Positions 44,034 through 56,909 of a stretch of 64,000 nucleotides of DNA are shown here, piece by piece (the stretch's first letter is position 1; the number at the start of each line of letters is the position of its first letter). Location: assembly GCA_951828515.1 (NCBI GenBank), contig OX639992.1, positions 310,001 through 374,000 on the forward strand, written 5' to 3'. The notes beneath the pieces are model-generated. The model was not told the origin of the DNA. It saw only the letters and a list, made by a program, of their open reading frames with translations, and ran no database searches. The position numbers were made by a program, and so were the translations under genes. This DNA is from an uncultured Poribacteria bacterium (GTDB lineage Bacteria > Poribacteria > WGA-4E > WGA-3G).

Positions 44034-45200
44034 TTAGGGTTGAGCAAGATATGCCCGATAGAGGTGACGCTTGAGATCTGCCTTAATCTCCGGTTGTGAT
44101 AATTTCTTATAGAGATCCAACTTACTATTGACGAAACCCAATAAAATTTCATCAAACACCTCATCAAACTTATACCGTTTGTTGCTCTCCGAATTATCCC
44201 CGTCAATCACCTGCCGAAGTTCCTCGTTTTCGCGCACTTTCTGGTGCATGGTCTCAAGGTCAACCTTATCTTCCGGTGTGAATTCCGTCTGATAGGCACT
44301 GTTTAGCGCGTCAATGATATTGGAGAGGAAATCCTGCTCAGGATCCCTGATGACAGCGACATCGCTACCGATCCCTTCGACCTCACTATCCCGTGCATCA
44401 AGGGAGAGGTGTAGACTCTCATGCGTTCTCTGCACACGGAATGAATCCAAATCAACAGACGCGAGTACATCTTGCAGGTCGGGGTGTTCCCGTTTCGGCA
44501 ACTTCTTGTTGAGACTGCGACCAAAGATATACAACTTCTCCAACGCCACATCGGTGAAGGTAATCAACTGTGAGATGTATCCGTAGAGCCGAATGTAACT
44601 CTGCAAGGTAGAACGAAACGCCTCCCTGTCCTCTGTTTCAAGTTCTCTCCACCGCTTAACAACGTCATCGAGAATGCCTTGTAGCAGTTCATCAGGTTTA
44701 TTCGTATCGTAAAAGATATTGCAGAATTCTTCGAGCGTCTCCTCACCATAGAGGTCAAACCCGTCCAACTGGTGCTGTAGGTCATACAACTGATTCGGGT
44801 CGGTCCCCTCCGCGAGTTTCGTGGTTTGATAGTATTGCTGAAACGCTTCCTGTATCTGCTCGGGTTCATTCACAAAGTCGAGCACCAACGTATCGGTTTT
44901 ACCTGCGGTAACACGGTTCAGGCGACTCAAGGTCTGAACACATTGCAGCCCGTCCAGCACCCCTCGACCCGCAATCTGTTTGCTCAGACGGTCGAGGAGT
45001 TTAGCGGGTGTCTCCGTACCATACTGGCGTTCCAGTCGCTGATATACGTCCGGTTGTGTGTCCTGAATAAACTGGAGGGTCTCATTAGGTATCAGGCAGA
45101 GGGATTTATCGTAGTCAGCAGATTGTAACGACCGGTAGTCCGACTGATTCAGGTGCTGTTCGATGTGGTCTTCAAAATCTTGTTCTGTATACGTCGGCAC
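44034..45200 (-). pseudogene. hsdR: Type I restriction endonuclease HsdR with a large internal in-frame deletion
   Basis: A 388-codon frame with a GTG start at 45200. Residues 1-84 are an HsdR N-terminus (PTYTEQDFEDHIEQHL, ADYDKSLCLIPNETL). At about residue 85 the sequence jumps to helicase motif VI (CVQTLSRLNR, 87-96) and GKTDTLVLDFVN, then continues through the C-terminal helical domain. Full HsdR is near 1000 residues. The PD-(D/E)XK nuclease and helicase motifs I-V, including Walker A and DEAD/H, are gone. It cannot cut or translocate DNA. The reading frame is intact, so a residual assembly role is conceivable. Confidence 0.85.
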
Positions 45201-45214
45201 GGGTCTACACCTCG

Positions 45215-46834
45215 TTAAATAGATGAGGGTTGTTCCTGTATCACAGGAATCACGTAACTCCGAATCCTCACACCCTCAACCGTCTCAATCTCCACACGCG
45301 GCTCTGGTGTCCTTCGATGATCGAACACAATATAATATCCCTCCGCGACGCCTTCTAATTTAAGATACGCGGCGAGCTGTCTTTTCCCTGATGCATAGTA
45401 ACTGCGTCCTCTCCACACCTTCGTCTCAACAATGTATTTTCGTTGATTGTGTGTGATAAGCATATCCAACCGCCCGCGTCCCGTCTGCACTTCAATGTGC
45501 ATCACGCCCCGTACAATCCTGACGAATTGGTCCAGATACGCAAACAAGAGATACCGTCCGACCGACTCCTGCGGCGTATCTGGGACCTGCAAAATCTGGA
45601 AACCCGCACGTCCGATGAAATCCCGGAAGTTATCAAGTAATGGAATGATATCAATGTGTCCAGAGGGTGTGAGATAATCTCGGAAACCGCTATGGGTGTC
45701 TTCAGAGAGGTATTGGTGTTCTAATCCATTTATCAGCGGTTTGAAAGTTTGTATGATACAATAGAGATAAATGGGATTCAAGATTTCGCAGAGATTGTCA
45801 ACACCTTTGACAATCACCCGATACGTCACGAGTTCGCTGATCCGTTCATCTCGGATATTGAAGGGCACGCCTTCTTCCGATGCCGTAATTTGCATGAGAA
45901 GGGTTGCAAAGCGACGATCTCTGCGGAGATTGGTAACGAGATGTGTAAGATTGGTATTATTTTCTTCAAGGAGTTGTGCATGTGCCTTCGCAAAGTGTGC
46001 CATGGTGAGTGCCTCCGTTTTGGGAATATCTAATTCCTCCGTCAGTATCTGTGCGAAGCGGTTCACCAAGAACGGCTGTCCTGCAGTCTGTGTGCGGATG
46101 GACGCGATGACTTCTGGCGTGAAGGGCTGCCCGACCTCCTTCGTATACTGCGAAAACAACGCAGTCACTTGCTCCAGGCTGAAATTCGGCAAATGAAATT
46201 CATCTTGAATATTGAACGGCGAAACCGACCTATCATAGTCGAGTTGTGCAATGCTCCTGACCCCGACGATCCCGACACTGTGCGGACACTGCATCTCATC
46301 AGAGAGATAAATCTGACGAAGGGTATATAGAAAATCGCTGAGGACGGCTTGCGGAATCCCATCAAATTCGTCAATCAAGAGGACCACCTTCTTGAAAGCA
46401 GGAACATCTTTATGAGAATCGCTGTCCAACAAACTTCCAAGATCCCCAAAGAACGCTTCCATAGAAAAATGATCTGTCAGCGTTGTGTTCTCCAGAAATT
46501 GCCTGAGCGATTCAGAAGGCGTGCCGCCGCGTTTTTGGAAAACACTCTGAATTTGTCTTTGAAGCATATAATACAACTGCTGATAAAAAACAGCAGGCGT
46601 AGCAGTGCGCATCGTTTGAAAATCTAACTGAATAGGGAAATAGGTTGGATCTTCCGTTGTGAGCACATCCATTGCGAATCGAAAGAAAGTCGTTTTACCG
46701 GTCTGGCGGGGTGCGAAGAGCACAACATACCTACCCGCTTTGACGCGATTGATGAAATCGGCAATCTCGGCAGTGCGAGGCACAACATAATGCTGGTCAG
46801 GATATACACGCCCGTATGTTCCAAAACTTCTCAT
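45215..46834 (-). CDS. AAA-type ATPase fused to a PD-(D/E)XK nuclease-like domain
   Basis: A 539-residue protein from ATG 46834 (GAGGTG site). Walker A is APRQTGKTT (41-49) and Walker B is VVLLIDEFDG; an AAA-like lid and winged-helix region follow. The C-terminal domain has GRGRLDMLITHNQRKYIVET then KVWRG, the Asp...Glu-x-Lys core of PD-(D/E)XK nucleases. Such proteins are frequent mobile-cargo or defence-associated genes of unknown action. The open frame continues upstream to 46915 through a copied HsdR start (PRYTETDLVEES). The stop lies inside the repeated hsdS/hsdR junction, 14 bases before hsdR. Confidence 0.8.
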   Translation of the reverse strand: MRSFGTYGRVYPDQHYVVPRTAEIADFINRVKAGRYVVLFAPRQTGKTTFFRFAMDVLTTEDPTYFPIQLDFQTMRTATPAVFYQQLYYMLQRQIQSVFQKRGGTPSESLRQFLENTTLTDHFSMEAFFGDLGSLLDSDSHKDVPAFKKVVLLIDEFDGIPQAVLSDFLYTLRQIYLSDEMQCPHSVGIVGVRSIAQLDYDRSVSPFNIQDEFHLPNFSLEQVTALFSQYTKEVGQPFTPEVIASIRTQTAGQPFLVNRFAQILTEELDIPKTEALTMAHFAKAHAQLLEENNTNLTHLVTNLRRDRRFATLLMQITASEEGVPFNIRDERISELVTYRVIVKGVDNLCEILNPIYLYCIIQTFKPLINGLEHQYLSEDTHSGFRDYLTPSGHIDIIPLLDNFRDFIGRAGFQILQVPDTPQESVGRYLLFAYLDQFVRIVRGVMHIEVQTGRGRLDMLITHNQRKYIVETKVWRGRSYYASGKRQLAAYLKLEGVAEGYYIVFDHRRTPEPRVEIETVEGVRIRSYVIPVIQEQPSSI

Positions 46835-46867
46835 GTTCACCTCTTTGTTATCGCTCTCCTCCACAAG

Positions 46868-47052
46868 GTCTGTCTCTGTATATCTCGGCACAGGTCTCCA
46901 CCTCGTTTCGGACATTAATTTTGCCGGTCACCGCTTCGGAGATAAGGGATTGACGGTATTCTTTGAGGCGTTTGATCTTTCGTCGCTCTGTGTCTATGAG
47001 TTCGTCAATCTGTTGTGTTTTGCGGGCGAGGACGTTGGCGATTTGGGTTCGT
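46868..47052 (-). pseudogene. Remnant of an hsdS 3' end joined to an hsdR 5' end
   Basis: Minus-strand sequence 47052-46901 translates as TQIANVLARKTQQIDELIDT, then KRLKEYRQSLISEAVTGKIN and VRNEV, matching the C-terminus of the intact HsdS (48314-48470; about 80 percent of bases). It continues through AGACCTGTGCCGAGATATACAG, a copy of the hsdR start region at 45175-45217 (MPRYTETDL versus MPTYTEQDF). It is a second hsdS/hsdR junction left between two cargo genes. Confidence 0.85.
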
Positions 47053-47084
47053 TTGGGTATTTTATCACCTTATCAGAGAGACTT

Positions 47085-48203
47085 TCAGGAGAGATGCGTA
47101 TCTATCTCATCTAAACTTTCTGCCATCATCGCTTGCTCTAAGAGAATATCCAAGTGTGCGTGGTTGTGGATATTGCTGATTTCGCGGGAGAGCGTTTCTG
47201 GCACGTGTTGAAATCGGAGCTGCAGGAGCTTGAGGACTGCATCCTGTTTACCTTCTGCTTTACCTTCTGCTTTACCTTCTGCTTTACCTTCTGCTTTACC
47301 TTCTGCTTTACCTTCTGCTTTACCTTCTGCTTTACCTTGTTCAACCCCAAGTTGCATACCTTGTTCTATGAGAAACTCAGCCGTTGTCTGTGCCATGTTT
47401 TCCAACTCCTTATGATCGTGAATATGCTGTCTGATAATATCTACTAACGCATCGCGCTCCTCAAGAGAACGTCGGTGGAATATCAACTGCACAAAATAGC
47501 GGAGTGCCTCCGCAACTTGCGGGGCAAAGTTTTCATCCACTGACGCTAAATGTGATACAGCATCTGCCAATGCTTCACTTATCTCTGTTTTGTCTGAATG
47601 CTCCTTTTGAAGCACACGCAACAACCAGCCCAACGGATGTCCGGATTGCGTCAGAACATCTGTCTCGGTCTCCTTGACCCCTAAGAATAGCGTGTCAAAA
47701 CTCGGTACAAAACGCGCCAAAATTTCAGGAACATCCATTATCGTCGTCAGGGACACCGGCACCGTCCACGGCGCGTCGCCTGTATAAAACAGAACCGGCA
47801 GGATCGGCTGTAAACGTCTTTCACTTTGTGGAATCTTCTCCGTTTCCCACTCCCGCCGTTGCGACTCCCAGATTTGAACCATGTAAGATAACAACCGAAA
47901 CCCCATCGTTTTATCTACAGTAGATTGATGTTCAATGAGGATATAGATGAGCAGAGCATCGGTATCTACAGCATCTGCGTCTTTTTCAAACGGGACACTC
48001 AGTAGGATATCCGACTCGCGTTCTTGCAGTGCCTCAGAAATAAAACTTCTTTCCTCGTATATGATCCGGTTGAAGTCGAGGAACGCCTCGATGTCCGGTG
48101 CGATGATTTGGACTAACCACCGCACATATTCACCGTCTTGGAGCAGGCGTCTGAGGCTCCGGTCAGGGAAGTGTTCTATCTGAATATCCTGTGTTTTGGG
48201 CAT
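47085..48203 (-). CDS. Rpn-type PD-(D/E)XK nuclease with a KAEG repeat tail
   Basis: A 372-residue protein of the Rpn/DUF4351-like group (recombination-promoting nuclease, transposase_31 type). Core residues are the Asp in QERESDILLSVPF and IEHQS (Glu-x-Gln) on the next strand. The N-terminus LLQDGEYVRWLVQIIAPDIEAF is typical. Residues about 290-317 are seven KAEG units, followed by the C-terminal AVLKLLQLRFQHVPETL tail shared with the small gene at 15124. A TTGATT/TATACT promoter (18-base spacer) lies at about 48245. It is flanked by two copies of the hsdS 3' end. Confidence 0.82.
   Translation of the reverse strand: MPKTQDIQIEHFPDRSLRRLLQDGEYVRWLVQIIAPDIEAFLDFNRIIYEERSFISEALQERESDILLSVPFEKDADAVDTDALLIYILIEHQSTVDKTMGFRLLSYMVQIWESQRREWETEKIPQSERRLQPILPVLFYTGDAPWTVPVSLTTIMDVPEILARFVPSFDTLFLGVKETETDVLTQSGHPLGWLLRVLQKEHSDKTEISEALADAVSHLASVDENFAPQVAEALRYFVQLIFHRRSLEERDALVDIIRQHIHDHKELENMAQTTAEFLIEQGMQLGVEQGKAEGKAEGKAEGKAEGKAEGKAEGKAEGKQDAVLKLLQLRFQHVPETLSREISNIHNHAHLDILLEQAMMAESLDEIDTHLS
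47251..47334. repeat. Seven perfect 12-bp tandem units in the Rpn gene
   Basis: CCTTCTGCTTTA is repeated seven times without change; on the coding strand it encodes Lys-Ala-Glu-Gly. The unit is a multiple of three, so slippage would change the length of the linker but not the frame. Confidence 0.95.
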
Positions 48204-48313: not shown

Positions 48314-49654
48314 CTATACCTCGTTTCGGACATCTATCTTGCCGGTCACCGCTTCGGAGATGAGGGACTGACGGTATTCCTTGAGGACTTCAATTTTTCG
48401 CTGCTCTGCGTTGATCAATTCGTCAATCTGTTCAGTTTTGCGATCAAGGAAGTCAACAATTTGGGTTTGTTCTTGATATGACTTAATGGGTACTTGTGCG
48501 TTCAGAATATCATAAACGTCTGTTCGTGGCATCTTCGCGCCCCTGGATATAGAATTGCAGTATTCAATGAACCGACTGGATAGCATCAGGTAAAAGAGGT
48601 ATTTACCAATATCTTGTAAAGAAGGTCTTATGATTATCATTTCACCGAGAGAGTAACCATCATATTCTGCATAAACCACCTTGTTGAGATAGACGCGAAT
48701 TTTGTTGAACAGCACATCGCCAACTTGAAATTTCACACCGTTTGAATCATAGGAACTGAAAAAATCAAGGACTTTACCGGTTTTCGATTCAACATTTTCA
48801 GGTGAAATTTTTATGGCATCTGTCTCAGGCATAGATTTTTCACTTACGAAAGTTGCGACATGTTTAATTTTCTTTACTTCCCAATGCCTCGGTATCTCTC
48901 CAATCCACTCCACGCCCGACGGTTTCATCTCCACATTCGGGTCAAGTCCCTTTGTTACTGCCTGATTTATGAGTGCGGTGCGTTGTTCGTGTAGCAGTTC
49001 TATCCGTCGTTCTTTGATGCGGATGAGTTCGTCAATCTGTTCGATTTTGCGGTCAAGGAAGTTGGCGATTTGGGTTTGTTCAGAATCAGTAGGTATAGGT
49101 AAAAGTAGATTTTCAATTGATGGTTTTCCCAAACCATATCTGGTAATTCCATTTGATTCCAACTCAAAATATTTTCTTGTCCTATCGGATTGAATAAATC
49201 TAAAAATGAACTCCCCACGACAAGCATAGGGTCTAATCATCGTTAAACGATAACCACAGACAACACTGTTCAAATCGTCTTTGACAAATGTTGGAACACC
49301 AATATCGTCTGGGGTCTCAGAATCCTTGGTAATAATAACATCACCTTTCCTCAAAACAAATTTCGCAAACTCACTTTCCTTGCAACTCCCCTTTTGCAAA
49401 ACGGTATCAACTGTAATATAATCGTTGTAATAAACATCTGTATAATTGCATAATCTGATCTGGATCTCATCTGGATAGATGTGTTTATCAACATTACTTG
49501 GTAGTATCTCCGCAACGTATTTGAGTCTTTTGACCTCCCAATGTGCTGGGATATCCCCAATCCACTCCACGCCGCTTTCTTTATATTCGGGATAATGTCT
49601 GAATCGCGGATTTGCGCGGATTCTGCGGATTTCTCGGATTCTGTTATCGCTCAT
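48314..49654 (-). CDS. hsdS: Type I restriction-modification specificity subunit
   Basis: A 446-residue HsdS with two target-recognition domains. Each is preceded by a conserved start (ESGVEWIGDIPAHWEVKRLK and PSGVEWIGEIPRHWEVKKIK). Each is followed by a conserved helix (QTQIANFLDRKIEQIDELI and QTQIVDFLDRKTEQIDELI). The two TRDs set the two halves of the recognition site. The first 22 residues (SDNRIREIRRIRANPRFRHY) are encoded by a dispersed AATCCGCG repeat. With HsdM it would form a methyltransferase. Coding appears intact. Confidence 0.92.
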   Translation of the reverse strand: MSDNRIREIRRIRANPRFRHYPEYKESGVEWIGDIPAHWEVKRLKYVAEILPSNVDKHIYPDEIQIRLCNYTDVYYNDYITVDTVLQKGSCKESEFAKFVLRKGDVIITKDSETPDDIGVPTFVKDDLNSVVCGYRLTMIRPYACRGEFIFRFIQSDRTRKYFELESNGITRYGLGKPSIENLLLPIPTDSEQTQIANFLDRKIEQIDELIRIKERRIELLHEQRTALINQAVTKGLDPNVEMKPSGVEWIGEIPRHWEVKKIKHVATFVSEKSMPETDAIKISPENVESKTGKVLDFFSSYDSNGVKFQVGDVLFNKIRVYLNKVVYAEYDGYSLGEMIIIRPSLQDIGKYLFYLMLSSRFIEYCNSISRGAKMPRTDVYDILNAQVPIKSYQEQTQIVDFLDRKTEQIDELINAEQRKIEVLKEYRQSLISEAVTGKIDVRNEV

Positions 49655-49873
49655 ATCAACTTTACTTTCATGTCTGAACTGCGGTTTTTATTACGTGTTT
49701 TTAGAATATCAATATCGGATTCGGAGCAAGCGTGGAGAAGCCGGAAGATCAGACGAATGCCTATGAACACACTTTCAATTACGAGTAGCGGCATTGTGTT
49801 GTGATAGAATCAGTCTCTTATATTTTAGGCTTTTCTCACCGAAATTGATTAATAAGGCGACTTCTAATCGATA

Positions 49874-51279
49874 CTAAAGTTTGGACAATTTTAAGAATTA
49901 AGATGTTTGAAAGCAGAAAAGCAGGTATCCTTTCATAAACATTCCACTATTTTGAAAGGAAGGCAAAAAATGCCCCTGCTTCTCCACTTAGAAGGTATTC
50001 TATCGGATTTTCGACATTTGTTCAACTCCCAAAACTTCGCACTTTTCCAAGCGTTTCTCTTCGGATTCATTGCCACAAGCGGGCGTGGAACGCTGACGGA
50101 ACTTTATCAATCGAGTGCTTCGCAGACGCGGTATTGGTCGTTTCCGAAGTTTCTTTCTCGGGGAAACTGGGATCCCGATGCCATCGCCATCTGCCTTCTC
50201 AAAAGGATCCAAGACGTGTTTTCTAACTGGGTTTACGTCTACGATACCACCAAAGCACTGAAGACGGGTAAAACCCAATGGGGTTTACATTTTTTCCGCA
50301 ACTTCAGTTATCAAGGGCATCGCGTGAATCAATCAAAGTTTCACTTCGGACACGAGTTTGGGGCCCTGGGTTTACTGTGTGCGACCCCTAGGGAGTGGCT
50401 CCTTTTTCCCGTCTGGGTAAAACTCATCGTGCCTCAGACGGTTCGAGATAAAGGGGATGCGGTGTTGAAACGTATCTGTTCAAAGATCCCCCGGGGCTTG
50501 ATCCTCTTTGATAGGGGGTTCGCCCGCCGCAGCGTCTTTGAAATGCTCTTGGGACTCGGACATGATATCTTGTGTCGTGCCAAGTCAAATGCGGTGTTCT
50601 ATCGTTTACCGAAACGTCCGAAGCGGCCGGGGCGCGGGCGTCCGAAGAAATATGGCGACCGTCTGCAGATCCACCGCTTACGGTATAAAGAACTTTCGAT
50701 CCTCGAGAAACCCTATCAGGTCGCCTCAGAGGTCGTGCGGACGAAAATGTGTCCGGCAGATGTCCGACTCGTCGTGATACGCACGCGACCCAAACGCTCG
50801 AAACCGTATCGGTATTTCTGTGTCTTTACAACAGACGTGGCACTCGAGATACCCAAGATCGTTGAATACTATCGACAGAGATGGCAGATCGAAACTGCCT
50901 TCCGAGATGTCAAGCAGCATTTCGGGTTTGATGCCTATCGGGTGAAATCCCGCAAAAGCATCAATCGGTTCGTGCAGTTGAGTTTCGTTGCGGCTTCGCT
51001 GACGAAGCTAATCTTCTCGATACCCGCTCCACACGCCTCGGATCAGAGACCCAGCGTCAAGGAGGTCTGCGAGCATCTCGGTATTCATTGGTATCATCCG
51101 AGGCACCTCACGCAAGGGTTACGGGTCGCTTATTTACAATCGCACCTCAGAGCGTTGGAATATTCTGCGAGTTGCCAAGAAAAGACTAACTCACAGAATA
51201 TTCAGCCTATATCTCAACACGATACCACGCTGCCTTTCGACAAAGCAGCTTGAAACTTACAATATTGTCCAAACTTTAG
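49874..51279 (+). mobile_element. Complete 1406-bp DDE insertion sequence with 9-bp target duplication
   Basis: Inverted ends CTAAAGTTTGGACAAT (49874-49889) and ATTGTCCAAACTTTAG (51264-51279) are perfect over 16 bases. The target TAATCGATA is duplicated at 49865-49873 and 51280-51288. Removing the IS and one duplicate rejoins the GxxExxY frame. The end structure and transposase fit the IS4-type superfamily; the subgroup is uncertain. Confidence 0.95.
49970..51253 (+). CDS. IS4-type DDE transposase
   Basis: A 427-residue transposase from ATG 49970 (GAAAGGAAGG site); the frame to 49907 is longer but less supported. The DDE residues are probably Asp in VYVYDTTKAL, Asp in LILFDRGFARRSVFE, and Glu in the C1 signature YRQRWQIETAFRDVKQHFG (Y-x2-R-W-x-I-E). 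A basic RPKRPGRGRPKKYG segment is typical of the insertion domain. It is intact, with perfect IS ends, so it is probably recent and active. Confidence 0.92.
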   Translation: MPLLLHLEGILSDFRHLFNSQNFALFQAFLFGFIATSGRGTLTELYQSSASQTRYWSFPKFLSRGNWDPDAIAICLLKRIQDVFSNWVYVYDTTKALKTGKTQWGLHFFRNFSYQGHRVNQSKFHFGHEFGALGLLCATPREWLLFPVWVKLIVPQTVRDKGDAVLKRICSKIPRGLILFDRGFARRSVFEMLLGLGHDILCRAKSNAVFYRLPKRPKRPGRGRPKKYGDRLQIHRLRYKELSILEKPYQVASEVVRTKMCPADVRLVVIRTRPKRSKPYRYFCVFTTDVALEIPKIVEYYRQRWQIETAFRDVKQHFGFDAYRVKSRKSINRFVQLSFVAASLTKLIFSIPAPHASDQRPSVKEVCEHLGIHWYHPRHLTQGLRVAYLQSHLRALEYSASCQEKTNSQNIQPISQHDTTLPFDKAA

Positions 51280-51732
51280 TAATCGATACGCCTTCAAATA
51301 ATTTAATGTCTGTACTACATGAACATCTTCCAACACGGTGATAGCTTTCAGTTCTACTAACACTTTTTGTGCTACCACAAAATCTGCTCTACGCGTTCCG
51401 ATGGGTTTTGGAAAATCTTTGTAGTAAATATTTTGCTCAATTTCTCTACTAAATTCTAACCCCGCTTTCCGCATCTCAACCGACAATGCGCGTTGATAAA
51501 TCACCTCTTGAAAACCGTTCCCAAAAACGTATGTACTTCAAATGCTGCGCCGATGCCCTTTTGCGTTATATCTTTATGTTTCAGGGTAGTGCTCATTTGT
51601 AATTCCGTTTCTCGATGGCCCTGTCTGTATCCATCGCGCCTTATATTATTACCGATCAAAGGTTAAACGAGCAGATTCTAACTTTTTAGGGCGTGATAGA
51701 ACAGATTCAATACTCCGCGCAATCCGTCTAAT

Positions 51733-51760
51733 CCGCGGAAATCCGCGATTCAGACAAATG
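51733..51760. repeat. AATCCGCG-type dispersed repeat
   Basis: AATCCGCGGAAATCCGCGAT then TCAGACA recurs as the first codons of hsdS (49595-49640). The 540 bases from 51597 to 52137 hold this repeat, an hsdM remnant, a promoter and a terminator, and no other gene. Confidence 0.7.
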
Positions 51761-51775
51761 GAGTCTGTCCAAACC

Positions 51776-51826
51776 TCATACTCCTAACACCTCATTCAAC
51801 AAGCCTTCACTTTTCCGCTCCAGTGC
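51776..51826 (-). pseudogene. Remnant of an hsdM 3' end
   Basis: The minus strand reads ALERKSEGLLNEVLGV-stop, matching the C-terminus of intact HsdM (ALERKSEGLLNEVLGL-stop at 55182). Further upstream the similarity fades (VRLILNDCMG). It marks a second hsdM end next to hsdS, with cargo genes lying between it and the intact hsdM. Confidence 0.8.
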
Positions 51827-51904
51827 TCCCATGCAATCGTTGAGTATCAGCCTCACATAGTTTGCGACTATTCGCCTATATTTGCCTTATATATTACGCA
51901 CATC

Positions 51905-51934
51905 ATGATACTCCAATTTGCCCGCAATGTCAAG
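51905..51934 (-). promoter_or_regulatory. Sigma-70-type promoter
   Basis: On the minus strand TTGACA (51929-51934) then TATCAT (51905-51910) with about 18 bases between. It reads toward the hsdM remnant, the GxxExxY pseudogene and hsdS. Confidence 0.55.
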
Positions 51935-52035
51935 GGAATTTGAAAATCAAAACGCCTGGCATGCTGAACGATAGGAGAAAGCGTTACAATTTTTAGCAAA
52001 GTGGGTTACGTCCCTCATGAAGGGAAACTTAACCG

Positions 52036-52064
52036 AAAAAAGCACGGAAACGCGGGTTCCGTGC
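52036..52064 (-). terminator. Rho-independent terminator after the retropepsin-like gene
   Basis: Stem GCACGGAA / TTCCGTGC (52042-52064) with a 7-base loop, followed on the minus strand by six T residues (52036-52041). Confidence 0.8.
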
Positions 52065-52137
52065 TCCTAATTGGCAGCTATGTGAGAAATAACAGACAGG
52101 CTGGTTCATGCCTTTAACAAAAGGAGAAAAACGATGT

Positions 52138-52545
52138 TTAAAATTGGATAGGTTTGGTTTCTATTATTCCTTTTGAATAACTAATAGTAGTATCAAAATT
52201 GCGCAGAAAATCCAAACCTAATATGGCATCTGCAACTATATCAGGACCTAATTGATGAAGTACAATATCCATATCACTTACCGATTCACCAATTGCTTCA
52301 ACTTTTGAAACACTTATAACCTTACTCCACCCTGAAGCATAAACCCCAGCAAACTCTACCATCTCTTTAGGTTCCGAAATATCGTAGCCTAAATTTGCAG
52401 CGACTTTTGGCGGTATAATACTACGCACCGCACCAGTGTCCAGCACTGCATTCATTGTTAAAGAAGTTTCAAGTGCCCCACTATATACAGTCAAATTCAA
52501 GATGATTAAATTATCTTTAGAAATATTAAAACGAATACGTCCCAT
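52138..52545 (-). CDS. Retropepsin-like aspartic protease
   Basis: A 135-residue single-domain protein. The active-site triad is D36-T-G-A39 in NAVLDTGAVRSIIPP, and the second conserved strand is ADAILGLDFLRNFD (Ile-Leu-Gly-x-Asp). Like retroviral proteases it would act as a dimer. Bacterial members of this group are common but mostly uncharacterised. Its ATG overlaps the upstream stop (TAATG), so it is translationally coupled to the 75-residue gene. A terminator follows. Confidence 0.82.
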   Translation of the reverse strand: MGRIRFNISKDNLIILNLTVYSGALETSLTMNAVLDTGAVRSIIPPKVAANLGYDISEPKEMVEFAGVYASGWSKVISVSKVEAIGESVSDMDIVLHQLGPDIVADAILGLDFLRNFDTTISYSKGIIETKPIQF

Positions 52546-52772
52546 TAAAGTAAGAACAATTTACCTTCAGGCATTTTGCCAGTATAGTGTATCGCTGCTC
52601 CTCCTATAAATCCATCTAACGCGTCATAGATGTCATCACGGACTCTGCTATGAACAGAAACTATACCGCCCAGGAGTTCAGTATTCTCACTGATTTCAGG
52701 TTCTATAATAAATAACCACTCATTTGGATATTTCCGTTCCATTTCTGGTATCGTTAAACGTTCAGCACACAT
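52545..52772 (-). CDS. Small hypothetical partner of the retropepsin-like protein
   Basis: A 75-residue acidic protein (TIPEMERKYPNEWLFIIEPE, then a GKMPEGKLFLL tail) of unknown function. Small proteins with this KYPxEWxxxxxPE pattern are often found directly before retropepsin-like genes in bacteria and look like a conserved two-gene unit. Its own promoter is at 52834-52862. Confidence 0.7.
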   Translation of the reverse strand: MCAERLTIPEMERKYPNEWLFIIEPEISENTELLGGIVSVHSRVRDDIYDALDGFIGGAAIHYTGKMPEGKLFLL

Positions 52773-52833
52773 TTTATACGCTCCTCGTCTCTGAAAAGGC
52801 TGACTAAGATTAAAAAGTTTTTAACCTTGGGGT

Positions 52834-52862
52834 ATTGTACCATATTTTCTACTCTTTGCCAA
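52834..52862 (-). promoter_or_regulatory. Promoter of the retropepsin pair, duplicated at 55148
   Basis: On the minus strand TTGGCA (52857-52862), 17 bases and TACAAT (52834-52839). The whole region from the -35 box to AACCTTG...AAAAACTT matches 55126-55176 nearly base for base. Confidence 0.7.
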
Positions 52863-53061
52863 GTCAATCATAAATCTCCATTTTTTCCTTGACAGTTCGT
52901 CCGAAACTGTGGTAAACTTAAAGTATCAAGTTGGCAGACATGCAAAGCGTTACCGCTTGGTAACGTGTCTGCCTACCCACTTTGCAGGGGTTAAAGACTT
53001 GAGACGTGAGACTTGATATACCCTGCGAAACACAAAAGATAAACTTTTCAAAGATAAGACG

Positions 53062-54234
53062 TTGCGCCACTTGCACGATGAGTTGAATATCTGTGGCGTT
53101 GTGCGAAATCATTTCATTGCCCTTTGTATGCGATACTATCGCCGATATGGCAAAGGGATTTCCTATAAGAAAATGTCTGCTCATTTGACGAAACTTAAGA
53201 AACTTGAGAAGTATCAGCATTGGAATATCCCTTACGCATGGGCATTACAAAATGTCCTAAAACGATTAGCACAAAGTTTCCGTGAAATGAAAACACTTGG
53301 TAGAGGTCATCCGCAGTTCAAGTCGTGTAAGAAACACAAAGGTATGACCTTTCGAGGTGAACAGGTTAAGTTCGAGTATCTTCTACCGAAGCAGAAAAAC
53401 GAAAGAAACCACCCAACGTATCGTATTCGTCTCAACGGACGTTGGTATCGTTTTGCCCTACACAGACCGATGGAAGGTCGCATTGTGCAGGTGCAAGTTA
53501 CACGAGACGCCCTCGGGGACGTGTATATCACCCTCACAGAAGCATGCACGGAAGTCAAACCCGAACCCAAGACAGGTAAAGCTGAAGGGTTCGACTTTGG
53601 TATCAAAGACTTCTTGACTGGTAGTGACGAACACCGATATACCTCTCCAATGTTCTACGAACACAACGCTGATAAGTTAGCGAAAGCACAACAGGCACAT
53701 TCCCGCAAGGTTAGAGGTTCTCATAACAGAGAGCGAGAACGCAAGAACGTTGCGCGTATGCATAAGAAGACTGAAAATCAGAGAACAGACCACCACTGGA
53801 AACTCGCCATAGAGGTGTGCGAAAAGTTTGATGTGCTGTTCTTTGAAGATCTGAACCTTGAGGGTATGAAACGCCTGTGGGGAAAACAGATATCTGACCT
53901 TGCTTTCGGTGAGTTCCTGCAGAAACTCAAACACCAAGTCCGTAAGCGTCTGCGTTGTGTGTTGAAGATTGACCGCTGGTCTCCGACAAGTCAGTGCTGC
54001 TCTGTTTGTGATCAGAAAAATGAAACCCTCACGTTAGCAGCCCGTCATTGGCAATGTCCGAAGTGTGAGACACACCTCGACCGTGACCAGAACGCTGCTA
54101 TGAATATTCTTAAGGAAGGGGTAGCTTCCTTTGGCTTAGGAGTCGTCAGACCGATTGTCCTGTTCAACAGGATTGTTGGCACCTCCGTTGAAGCGACCAG
54201 TCCGCTTCTGAAATCCACAAATGCTTTCGCATAA
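53062..54234 (+). CDS. tnpB: TnpB-type RNA-guided nuclease, solo, N-terminus uncertain
   Basis: About 390 residues. Catalytic Asp in GFDFGIKDFL (about 177), Glu in LFFEDLNLEGM (about 260), a CSVCDQKNE...CPKCETH zinc knuckle and last Asp in LDRDQNAAMNI are all present. There is no ATG near the start: the given start is TTG 53062, with CTG 53023 an alternative, and TGA 53014 closes the frame. Homologs usually have a further beta strand before RHLHDELNICG, so the N-terminus may be slightly cut. It differs strongly from the TnpB at 27221, so the two elements are unrelated arrivals. Confidence 0.85.
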   Translation: MRHLHDELNICGVVRNHFIALCMRYYRRYGKGISYKKMSAHLTKLKKLEKYQHWNIPYAWALQNVLKRLAQSFREMKTLGRGHPQFKSCKKHKGMTFRGEQVKFEYLLPKQKNERNHPTYRIRLNGRWYRFALHRPMEGRIVQVQVTRDALGDVYITLTEACTEVKPEPKTGKAEGFDFGIKDFLTGSDEHRYTSPMFYEHNADKLAKAQQAHSRKVRGSHNRERERKNVARMHKKTENQRTDHHWKLAIEVCEKFDVLFFEDLNLEGMKRLWGKQISDLAFGEFLQKLKHQVRKRLRCVLKIDRWSPTSQCCSVCDQKNETLTLAARHWQCPKCETHLDRDQNAAMNILKEGVASFGLGVVRPIVLFNRIVGTSVEATSPLLKSTNAFA

Positions 54235-54267
54235 CATTGCGGAAGCCCCCGAATTCATTCGGGGGTC
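54110..54267 (+). ncRNA. Probable omega-RNA / right end of the second TnpB element
   Basis: The 3' part of the gene and its tail carry stems such as GTCCTGTTCAACAGGA, and end with GGAAGCCCCCGAATTCATTC then GGGGG (54241-54265). This GAAGCCCCCG hairpin is the usual right-end structure of this TnpB type, so the guide would start near 54268. The 146 bases from there to 54413 show nothing else. Confidence 0.55.
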
Positions 54268-54413
54268 TATCACGAGCATGAAGATTTTCGCGGTTCATAA
54301 TCGAAAAGGTCCTCCCCAGTAGCGTCCATACGGTTTCAAGTGGATATGAAAAACGGCTCAAACCAAGTTATTACTGGATTCAAGCCGATTTGGAAAATGT
54401 CTAATATTTACGC

Positions 54414-55112
54414 TTATCGGGCGTTTTTGATGCTTCCCCATGTGGTTGTGAGCTTGGCTTTAGGGTCTACGGCGGTAAGATTCGCATCGCCGAAGTACTC
54501 AATTTCGCCAATTTGAAAGTACGCCCCAGACGGGTTCGATGCCGTGTCTAAAGTAACATGCCGAAAAAACCGATACCCGGTGGTTTGAACTTCAAAATCT
54601 TCCCCTGCCTCAAAAAGGACGACTTGCAGTCGCTGATCCCAAAAGCCATCCCCGTCGTGAGCAAAGATGGTCGTAAATTCCTCGCCGTCATTCGACCCCT
54701 GAACTTCCCACACTGTAGGGTCCCTCGCAGGAACATCGTTCGCTGAAGATAAGGTGAAGTGTGTCAATGCGTACGGCTCCTCAAACTCAGCTGTCACGTG
54801 TAAACCTTCATCCGGAATGCCACCCCCAAGTCCGCAGCACCATTTGTCATTGCTGGGACCAAGGCGGTTATCGAAGACGTTAAACGCAAATTCCCCGCCC
54901 GCGAATCCGGGTTCATCGTTGGCTGAGAAAATGGCGTTGTAACCTTCATCTGATTCAGGATCACCATCGTCTTCTGGGTCGGTTAGGTCGCCTCCTAACA
55001 GTGAATCTGTTCCTGTTCCCAAGACTTCCTCCGCCTGTGCCATGTCGCTCGTGCTGATAACACAATAGGTTATCATCAACACAAATCCTGCTAATACCAT
55101 CATAATTTTCAT
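54414..55112 (-). CDS. Secreted discoidin (F5/8 type C)-like protein
   Basis: A 232-residue protein from ATG 55112 (AGGAGG site); a TTG nine bases upstream is rejected. The signal peptide MKIMMVLAGFVLMITYCVIS ends near AQA. The mature part has a beta-sandwich pattern (FNVFDNRLGPSNDKWCC, TVWEVQGSNDGEEFTTIF, GYRFFRHVTLD, FQIGEIEYFG) typical of discoidin-like carbohydrate-binding domains. The C-terminus ends VDPKAKLTTTWGSIKNAR, possibly an export or anchoring tail. It is probably surface-associated, binding polysaccharide. Confidence 0.75.
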   Translation of the reverse strand: MKIMMVLAGFVLMITYCVISTSDMAQAEEVLGTGTDSLLGGDLTDPEDDGDPESDEGYNAIFSANDEPGFAGGEFAFNVFDNRLGPSNDKWCCGLGGGIPDEGLHVTAEFEEPYALTHFTLSSANDVPARDPTVWEVQGSNDGEEFTTIFAHDGDGFWDQRLQVVLFEAGEDFEVQTTGYRFFRHVTLDTASNPSGAYFQIGEIEYFGDANLTAVDPKAKLTTTWGSIKNAR

Positions 55113-55147
55113 GCCGTTCAACCTCCTAAAGTTTTTAACCTTGAGGT

Positions 55148-55176
55148 ATTATACCGCATCTTCTACTCTTTGCCAA
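55148..55176 (-). promoter_or_regulatory. Promoter of the discoidin-like gene
   Basis: On the minus strand TTGGCA (55171-55176), 17 bases and TATAAT (55148-55153). It is a near copy of 52834-52862 and lies directly after the hsdM stop. Confidence 0.75.
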
Positions 55177-55181
55177 GCAAA

Positions 55182-56909
55182 TTACAACCCCAACACCTCA
55201 TTCAGCAAGCCTTCACTTTTCCGCTCGAGTGCCAACAATTCGTCCGTGATTTCCTTCAGGGACCGCAGCGGCGTGTACTGGTAGAAATACCGATTGAAGT
55301 TGATTTCGTAGCCCACCTTATCCTTCTTTCTATCCAGCCAACTGTCAGGCAGATGCGGTTTCACTTCTCGTTGGTAATAATCGTTAACATCGTCCGTGAG
55401 GGGCACGCGCTCAGCGTCTCGCAACTTGGTATCCGGTTTCGGATTGCCCTTTTTGTCCCGAACGACATCCGCTGTCTCCTCGTCAATGAGCGGTCTCTCA
55501 ACCGTTACCTTCGTGTAGCCGAAAAAGTCGTTTGGATAGATTTTGGAGTGTTCGGTCTCTTCAAAGTCGGTATAGAGTTCTACGATGTGACGGATATGGC
55601 TATCGGAAATGAGAGCGTTTTTGTCTCCGAGATTTCTTTTCATCTCGTCGTGGAAGTCAACGGCGTTGATGAGTTGGATCTTCCCCTGTCTCGCCTCCGA
55701 TTTTCGATTCGTCAAGATCCAGATATAGGTGGAAATACCGGTATTGAAGAACAACTTTTCAGGCAGTGCGATGATACACTCCAGCCAGTCGTTTTCGATA
55801 ATCCACCGTCGGATTTCACTCTCGCCGCTACCGGCATCCCCCGTAAAGAGCGGCGACCCGTTAAAGACAATTCCCACCCGACTCCCGCGATTCTCCATCT
55901 TGGAGAGCATGTGTTGCAGGAACAGTAACGCCCCATCGGAGGTGCGCGGTGCCCCTGCTGAGAACCTACCGGTGGCGGTCTGCGCTTCCGCTTTCACCGC
56001 CGTCTCGTCGGATTTCCAACTCACACCGAAGGGCGGATTGGTTATCATATAATCGAAACGTTGCCCTTGAAATTGGTCGTCGGAGAGACTCGAACCGTGT
56101 CGAATATTGTCGGGATCCTCGCCGGTAATGAGCATATCCGACTTGCAGATTGCGTAGGTCTGCGCGTTCAACTCCTGACCCAACAGCCGAATGTCGGCAT
56201 CCGGATTAATCTGTTCGCGGAAGTACTCCTTCCCAATCGTTAACATGCCGCCTGTTCCGCAACATGGATCGAAGATGCTGCGGATAATCCCCTGCCCGCG
56301 CAAATCCTCGCCGTGTTCCGCAAATAACAACGAAACCAACAACCGCACGACATCCCGCGGCGTGTAGTGTTCCCCACTCGTCTCGTTGGACATCTCCGAG
56401 AATCGGCGGAGCAGTTCCTCAAAGACCTGTCCCATCGTGTGGTTGTCCACCTGATTCGGGTGCAGATCGATTTCGGTGAACTTATCGCAGAAGATGAACA
56501 AACGGTTATTTCTCTCCAATCGCTCAATAAACTGATCAAGATTGAAGTTTTCAATGATGTCGCGCACGTCTTGACTGAACCCGCCGAGGTAGTTTTCAAA
56601 ATTGAGGCGGATGTTGTTCGCGTCCTCTTTCAGTCGAGCGAGATCGTATTGGGAGGTGTTGTAGAAGCTGGTGCCTGTCGCTTGCCGAATAATCGGTGGG
56701 AGCTGATCTTCCGGTACTAAGTCTTTAAACTGATTGTAGGTATTGATGGCTTCCTCTTTTCGTCCGTCCTCATCTAAGATACAGTCCAATCGGCGTAGCA
56801 CCAGAAACGGCATCGTGATGTCGCCATATTCGTGCGGTTTGAAGAGTCCGCGCAGCACATCGTCTGCAACAGTCCAAACCAGATGTGCCAGTTCTTGATA
56901 ATTCGCCAC
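55182..56909 (-). CDS. hsdM: Type I restriction-modification DNA methyltransferase subunit
   Basis: A 575-residue N6-adenine methyltransferase. An N-terminal helical HsdM_N domain (ELAHLVWTVADDVLRGLFKP) comes first. The SAM-binding motif is FDPCCGTGGM (about 214-223) and the catalytic motif is NPPFGVSW (about 288-295). The C-terminus interacts with HsdS. It appears intact. Cargo genes now lie between it and hsdS. With an intact hsdS and a gutted hsdR, the system probably methylates but cannot restrict. Confidence 0.93.
   Translation of the reverse strand: MANYQELAHLVWTVADDVLRGLFKPHEYGDITMPFLVLRRLDCILDEDGRKEEAINTYNQFKDLVPEDQLPPIIRQATGTSFYNTSQYDLARLKEDANNIRLNFENYLGGFSQDVRDIIENFNLDQFIERLERNNRLFIFCDKFTEIDLHPNQVDNHTMGQVFEELLRRFSEMSNETSGEHYTPRDVVRLLVSLLFAEHGEDLRGQGIIRSIFDPCCGTGGMLTIGKEYFREQINPDADIRLLGQELNAQTYAICKSDMLITGEDPDNIRHGSSLSDDQFQGQRFDYMITNPPFGVSWKSDETAVKAEAQTATGRFSAGAPRTSDGALLFLQHMLSKMENRGSRVGIVFNGSPLFTGDAGSGESEIRRWIIENDWLECIIALPEKLFFNTGISTYIWILTNRKSEARQGKIQLINAVDFHDEMKRNLGDKNALISDSHIRHIVELYTDFEETEHSKIYPNDFFGYTKVTVERPLIDEETADVVRDKKGNPKPDTKLRDAERVPLTDDVNDYYQREVKPHLPDSWLDRKKDKVGYEINFNRYFYQYTPLRSLKEITDELLALERKSEGLLNEVLGL

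Follow-up and report, generated by a model that had tools for sequence, protein, structure and literature searches.

The 64,000-nucleotide stretch analysed here (the window; positions 310001–374000 of the one-contig, 5.85 Mb genome of an uncultured Poribacteria bacterium, contig OX639992.1 of GCA_951828515.1) carries on its minus strand a type I restriction–modification operon, hsdM–hsdS–hsdR, in which other genes occupy the joints between the hsd genes and ends of hsd genes recur out of place. The intact hsdM gene for the N6 methylase (55182–56909; Pfam N6_Mtase, 1.6e-63, and HsdM_N) terminates in a segment (55182–55232) that encodes ALERKSEGLLNEVLGL* (the asterisk marks the stop) and holds a GAGG ribosome-binding motif; the copies described below derive from its last ~50 nt. 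One ectopic copy lies on the same strand at 51776–51827, with GAGG and ATGA kept. Its core match covers 44 nt (51783–51826) at 93% identity, and a profile extends it to 51776–51827 (nhmmer E 9.5e-11 against 39 Poribacteria loci). A genome-wide search with the 44-nt hsdM end (E 1.6e-11) returned only two copies in 5.85 Mb, which bears out the recurrence of the hsdM tail at 51776–51826 noticed in a first-pass annotation.

The genes named in that annotation are all present between the two hsdM ends. Closest to hsdM is a gene for a discoidin-like (F5/8 type C) secreted protein (54414–55121, minus strand), a cargo also found in L146, L152, L154 and L176 (L with a number labels a compared locus). 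It is followed by tnpB (OrfB_IS605; 53062–54234, plus strand), a later insertion opposite to the cargo direction, and by an open reading frame (ORF) for a 75-aa partner (52545–52772, minus strand) together with a gene for a retropepsin-like clan AA aspartic protease (52138–52545, minus strand; PADLOC candidate PDC-M08B). Cargo similar to the partner ORF occurs in several other Poribacteria hsd loci. The discoidin gene and the ORF–protease pair are each preceded by a copy of a 50-nt repeat (55128–55177 and 52814–52863; 90% alike, the only two in the genome) bearing a promoter-like element on the minus strand. The first element, TTGGCA-17-TATAAT (55148–55176; 11/12), stands just after the hsdM stop, and the second spans 52834–52862. 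A sequence similar to the 50-nt repeat follows hsdM in L153, L154, L160, L162, L163 and L166.

The copy had also been taken to frame this cargo. The repeat is real, but it is fused to the remnant of another gene: a PIN (HEC-03A-like) gene, of which the final ~17 codons survive (51810–51860, minus strand; tblastn E 4e-5, 76% over 17 aa), runs into it, and the same PIN/hsdM-end junction occurs in L146, L158, L171 and L175. Since PIN-gene codons precede it, the copy is the tail or scar of a deleted AAA–PIN cassette. It does not form the other end of the present cargo, which sits with its own promoter repeats between hsdM and this scar, nor does it serve as the end of a working gene. On the hsdS side, the flank of the copy matches the ancestral hsdM–GxxExxY junction of L147 and L151. 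A single insertion framed by two hsdM ends would account for two genome copies with cargo between them, but this explanation of the window is highly improbable, as the fusion to the PIN remnant is common to four other loci and the cargo order differs in relatives.

The placement of the copy just upstream of the hsdS side stood in part: it does lie there, but a GxxExxY (PDDEXK_3) gene split by an insertion sequence (IS) and a dispersed repeat intervene. The 5' part of the split gene spans 51283–51659 (minus strand), and the DDE_Tnp_1 IS inside it spans 49872–51281 (plus strand), with 21-bp terminal inverted repeats and a 5-bp target duplication, ATCGA. The dispersed ~45-nt repeat (CTGAATCGCGGATT...) occurs at 51714–51757 and at about 40 genomic sites; another copy of it supplies the first codons of hsdS (48314–49654, minus strand; Pfam Methylase_S, 1.8e-19). 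A TTGACA-17-TATCAT promoter at 51905–51933, just upstream of the hsdM-end copy, has a similar counterpart in L146 and may serve the hsd genes downstream.

The statement that each hsd boundary holds cargo and a repeated gene end applies equally to the hsdS–hsdR joint. There, an Rpn/YhgA-like (Transposase_31) gene (47085–48203, minus strand; Pfam 2e-29) is followed by a copy of the hsdS 3' end (46900–47053, minus strand; 154 nt, 81%) that runs into a copy of the hsdR start. The second cargo gene, AAA_35 (45215–46915, minus strand), has its called start inside this hsdS-end copy, and a 16-nt copy of the hsdS tail (AACGAGGTGTAGACCC; 45201–45216, minus strand) directly before hsdR gives the latter its ribosome-binding site. 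The hsdS tail thus occurs three times in the window: after hsdS, before the AAA_35 gene and before hsdR. A 14–16 nt copy of the hsdS tail resembling ACGAGRTKTAGACC, with the ribosome-binding site of hsdR, precedes hsdR in 10 of the 11 Rpn loci.

The close relatives of the window hsdM come nearly all from Candidatus Poribacteria. The survey of hsd loci proposed in the first-pass annotation was carried out on 38 stretches around related hsdM genes of this phylum, which with the window make 39 loci, and cargo and repeated ends were mapped in each. Four sites are empty (L159, L168, L173 and L179), with an hsdM–hsdS distance of -3 bp and the two genes overlapping at ATGA. The other 35 have a gap, with hsdS also seen in 22 of them; the hsdM–hsdS distance is 0.9 to 6.8 kb where both ends are seen, and exceeds 9 kb in one contig-limited locus. 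Altogether, 29 out-of-place copies of the hsdM end were found in 23 of the 35 gap loci (17/22 where hsdS is also seen), always in the hsdM orientation and almost only from the last 36–100 nt of the gene. The pattern therefore recurs at other loci and involves both joints, in agreement with the earlier suggestion of a general process that loads genes there.

To see which part of hsdM is copied, whole hsdM genes were compared with all hsdM–hsdS gap DNA (131 kb). Matches to the final 100 nt of hsdM occurred at 22–36 places, whereas earlier 50-nt segments had at most four gap matches each, confined to L151, L180 and L182, and no minus-strand match of hsdM was found in the 131 kb. This difference indicates that the copies are a gene-end phenomenon, not the outcome of random decay of second hsdM genes. 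Descent from whole second hsd operons, either tandem duplicates or imported loci, that have since decayed would be in line with the hsdM pieces from two regions in L151, the broken hsdM genes of L180 and L182, and the old, longer hsdM-like stretches before hsdS in L160, L172 and L174. Elsewhere, however, only the last 36–51 nt are present, with sharp borders in common, other hsdM segments are absent from the gap DNA outside L151, L180 and L182, and in several loci the copies end exactly at the hsdS start, all of which makes such descent very unlikely. An origin of the short copies in independent degraded hsd genes is thus rejected for the phylum as a whole by the segment control. Recombination among several type I loci of one genome, which had been offered as the process, is unsupported, because the genome has a single hsdM of this family and the next matches are 27–33% identical; exchange between strains fits better.

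The copied piece contains a translation signal, a point that the first-pass annotation missed, as it missed the origin of the window copy from a deleted cassette. At the empty sites, hsdS starts at the ATGA that overlaps the hsdM stop, and a GAGG lies some 9–10 nt upstream, inside hsdM. The hsdM and hsdS genes of EcoKI likewise overlap and are translationally coupled (PMC3510504). The copied stretch spans this GAGG...ATGA region, that is, the ribosome-binding and stop–start region of hsdS. In six loci (L154, L160, L167, L171, L172 and L174), a copy stands directly before hsdS; all six of these copies still have GAGG and five still have ATGA, with the hsdM frame broken in most. ATGA is retained in 5/6 of these copies versus 7/23 of the others (Fisher one-sided p 0.03, for copies that are not independent). 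It could be argued that ordinary illegitimate or homologous recombination, by unequal crossover or template switching, doubled the gene ends as a mere by-product, with no selection on translation. In support of that, many copies lie away from hsdS and no longer contain ATGA, promoters accompany some of the cargo, and copy-free gaps are common outside the phylum. However, the duplications repeatedly contain the ribosome-binding site and stop at ATGA, and comparable cases exist at the second joint and in a different phylum, so we regard a pure by-product as doubtful.

The lengths of the putative target duplications are 36–51 nt in most loci, about 90 nt in L172 and L174, and 52 nt in the planctomycete locus L089. 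Insertion with target duplication predicts that the DNA on the hsdS side of a copy matches the DNA downstream of hsdM in other genomes, and such matches were found: the hsdS-side flanks of the window, L146 and L149 match the hsdM downstream flanks of L147 and L151, those of L163, L167 and L182 match that of L150, and that of L161 matches L163.

Several kinds of units are closed by a copy: AAA_15/21 with DUF3696 plus PIN, a ParE-type toxin with its partner, a small protein plus retropepsin, Argonaute with an Aga-REase partner, PD-Lambda-4 and a membrane-protein-like unit; other gap cargo includes a SEFIR/TIR protein. The commonest, AAA plus PIN, matches PADLOC HEC-03B (1.6e-142) and HEC-03A (2.6e-32), and it is by such profile matches to defence models that the cargo is tied to phage defence. 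Outside hsd loci, PIN genes have natural final codons ('..DDIRSILS*'); in the slot, their reading frame continues into the hsdM end ('..GSTGTEK*') and meets a stop there in a frame other than that of hsdM. The cassettes include at least six types with differing breakpoints in the 90-nt hsdM-end model (about 2, 34, 39–40, 41, 48 and 52), and where more than one locus is known for a type, its members have the fusion point in common, which suggests several independent origins followed by spread. The order of cassettes varies. In L171, hsdM is followed by AAA–PIN, ParE, small protein plus protease and hsdS, with a copy after each cassette; in L154 a discoidin unit precedes AAA–PIN and then hsdS, and in L176 discoidin comes after AAA–PIN. 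On the HsdM tree, the minimum numbers of changes are at least 10 for AAA–PIN, 8 for copies and 4 for empty sites, and the empty L173 has as its sister L171, which holds three cassettes.

A single target, a single orientation, tandem cassettes and a gene end restored at each junction are what would be expected if a site-specific recombinase used the hsdM 3' end as its attachment site, in the manner of integrases at tRNA ends, the copies being attL/attR or cassette sites. However, copy length and left breakpoint vary by cassette type, no recombinase was found among the roughly 20 of the cargo proteins that were scanned against profile models, five copies fold no better than shuffles and form no hairpin beyond those of shuffles, and a comparable copy exists at the hsdS end before hsdR. 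A dedicated recombinase is thus unlikely.

Taken together, these observations make it probable that the joints are cargo slots, filled by insertion with long target duplication, shaped by selection for a ribosome-binding site and stacked by homologous recombination between strains. We infer these three processes as follows. Both the hsdM–hsdS and the hsdS–hsdR joints of this operon family would act as slots. With hsdS translated by the ATGA stop–start overlap and its ribosome-binding site presumably within the last 20 nt of hsdM, an operon with an insert should work only if the hsdM end is doubled, one end terminating hsdM and the other starting hsdS. Foreign defence-type genes would enter by insertion with a long, variable target duplication (36–51 nt, about 90 nt in one family), and selection would keep those events that double the ribosome-binding site; such selection would account for the duplication of a gene end in particular. 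Each entry would yield a cassette with its start at or near ATGA, its ORFs and a copied hsdM end. As every cassette would then end in hsdM-like DNA, recombination between strains, with one crossover in hsdM or hsdS and the other in an hsdM-end copy, could stack, re-order or remove cassettes. At the hsdS–hsdR joint, the copied piece would be the hsdS tail. In the window, the copied tail would be what remains of a former AAA–PIN cassette, and other cargo, with promoter repeats of its own, would lie between hsdM and that scar.

Several results weigh against the slot reading. No copy was found in 12 of the 35 gap loci, in some of them owing to contig ends. Most copies lack the start codon and are no longer next to hsdS, which limits the direct use of the translation argument to six loci; the Fisher test gives weak evidence (0.056 when two-sided), and the copies have common descent. 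Copies are about equally similar to the hsdM end of their own locus and to copies of the same cassette elsewhere, giving no clear signal for cassettes that travel with their tails. At the second joint, per-locus shuffle tests of the hsdS-tail copy, which are underpowered, fail in L157, L161 and L167, where the local hsdS tail has diverged. Most gap loci outside the phylum are without a copy. Finally, no insertion enzyme was found for the cargo, and Ku was absent from the genome in a search with a positive B. subtilis control; Ku-dependent end joining was accordingly rejected.

Outside the phylum, a sample of 65 other hsdM loci was compared, at least 17 of which apparently have a gap by an HsdS motif search that missed many. 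In Aeoliella straminimaris (a planctomycete, L089), a 52-nt, 90% copy of the hsdM end stops exactly at ATGA, at which the next ORF, an Mrr-like PDC-S02 candidate, starts. In a Bacteroidales genome (L048), a Cap12-like TIR gene is followed by a 52-nt, 86% copy. L085 and L056 gave weak alignments, which equalled or hardly exceeded the best shuffle and were left out of the counts. Copies of the hsdM end thus seem to be rarer in this sample than in Poribacteria.

The embedding of genes in type I loci is already known at both joints in other bacteria: prrC in EcoprrI (PMC3874165), the rlo/mlo ORFs of Campylobacter (PMC5183652, citing Miller 2005) and DarTG2 between hsdS and hsdR (PMC12255303). As here, defence or accessory genes lie between hsd genes, including the hsdM–hsdS and hsdS–hsdR joints. 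In contrast to the present loci, where most gaps contain copied gene ends and a slot may hold several cassettes, the searched passages of those papers contain no copied gene ends. Insertion with long target duplication was described by Nobusato, Uchiyama, Ohashi and Kobayashi (2000), as cited in PMC3031569, with restriction–modification genes as the insert. To the extent of that account, the likeness includes the link to restriction–modification, the empty sites in relatives (L159, L168, L173 and L179) and the long, variable direct target copies flanking the insert, which were looked for and found here. The difference is that here the restriction–modification operon is the target and the cargo consists of other defence-type genes, what is copied is a gene end carrying the ribosome-binding site of the next gene, and inserts stack. 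No report of cassettes tailed with hsd gene ends was found in the literature searched, which did contain embedding and long target duplication. The commonest cargo corresponds to the PADLOC candidate HEC-03, an AAA plus PIN pair, but differs from it in that the last codons and the stop of the PIN gene come from the hsdM end.

As in integrons, there is one slot, one orientation, an exchangeable order and a common tail; unlike integron cassettes, the five copies compared with shuffles have no attC-like fold, the tail is variable in length and operon-derived, and the scanned cargo proteins include no recombinase. We tentatively consider a recombinase-free cassette platform possible, in which the hsdM 3' end would be both translation signal and homology tag, and tailed genes would be added, permuted and removed by general recombination, as if the coupled joint was an integron-like defence array. 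More generally, the slots suggest the rule that a foreign gene entering a tightly coupled operon must bring or create a second ribosome-binding gene end. They offer a candidate mechanism for embedding, which has so far been described mainly by its outcome, could explain a possible pile-up of defence genes inside restriction–modification loci, and provide a way to find embedded defence genes, by searching for repeated hsd gene ends.

Among the other cargo of hsdM–hsdS gaps, a long Argonaute (AlbA_2 + HATPase + Piwi) occurs in L156, L167 and L176, with a DUF4365/Aga-REase partner in L156 and L167. A protein of ~840 aa encoded directly upstream of hsdS in L152, L160, L177 and L178 has no matches in Pfam, PADLOC or NCBIfam. 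In L191 (genome G070), an AAA–PIN end and an hsdM-end copy are fused to an hsdS end, and the genome has no matching hsdM; this is a locus that lost hsdM. The window operon has hsdM and hsdS but not a full hsdR, which its relatives carry. Its hsdR (44034–45200, minus strand) has an in-frame internal deletion of 591 codons (residues 87–677 of a 992-aa relative) at a short repeat resembling GTGCTGGACG. As the deletion removes the nuclease and motor, the type I system of the window is probably methylation-only.

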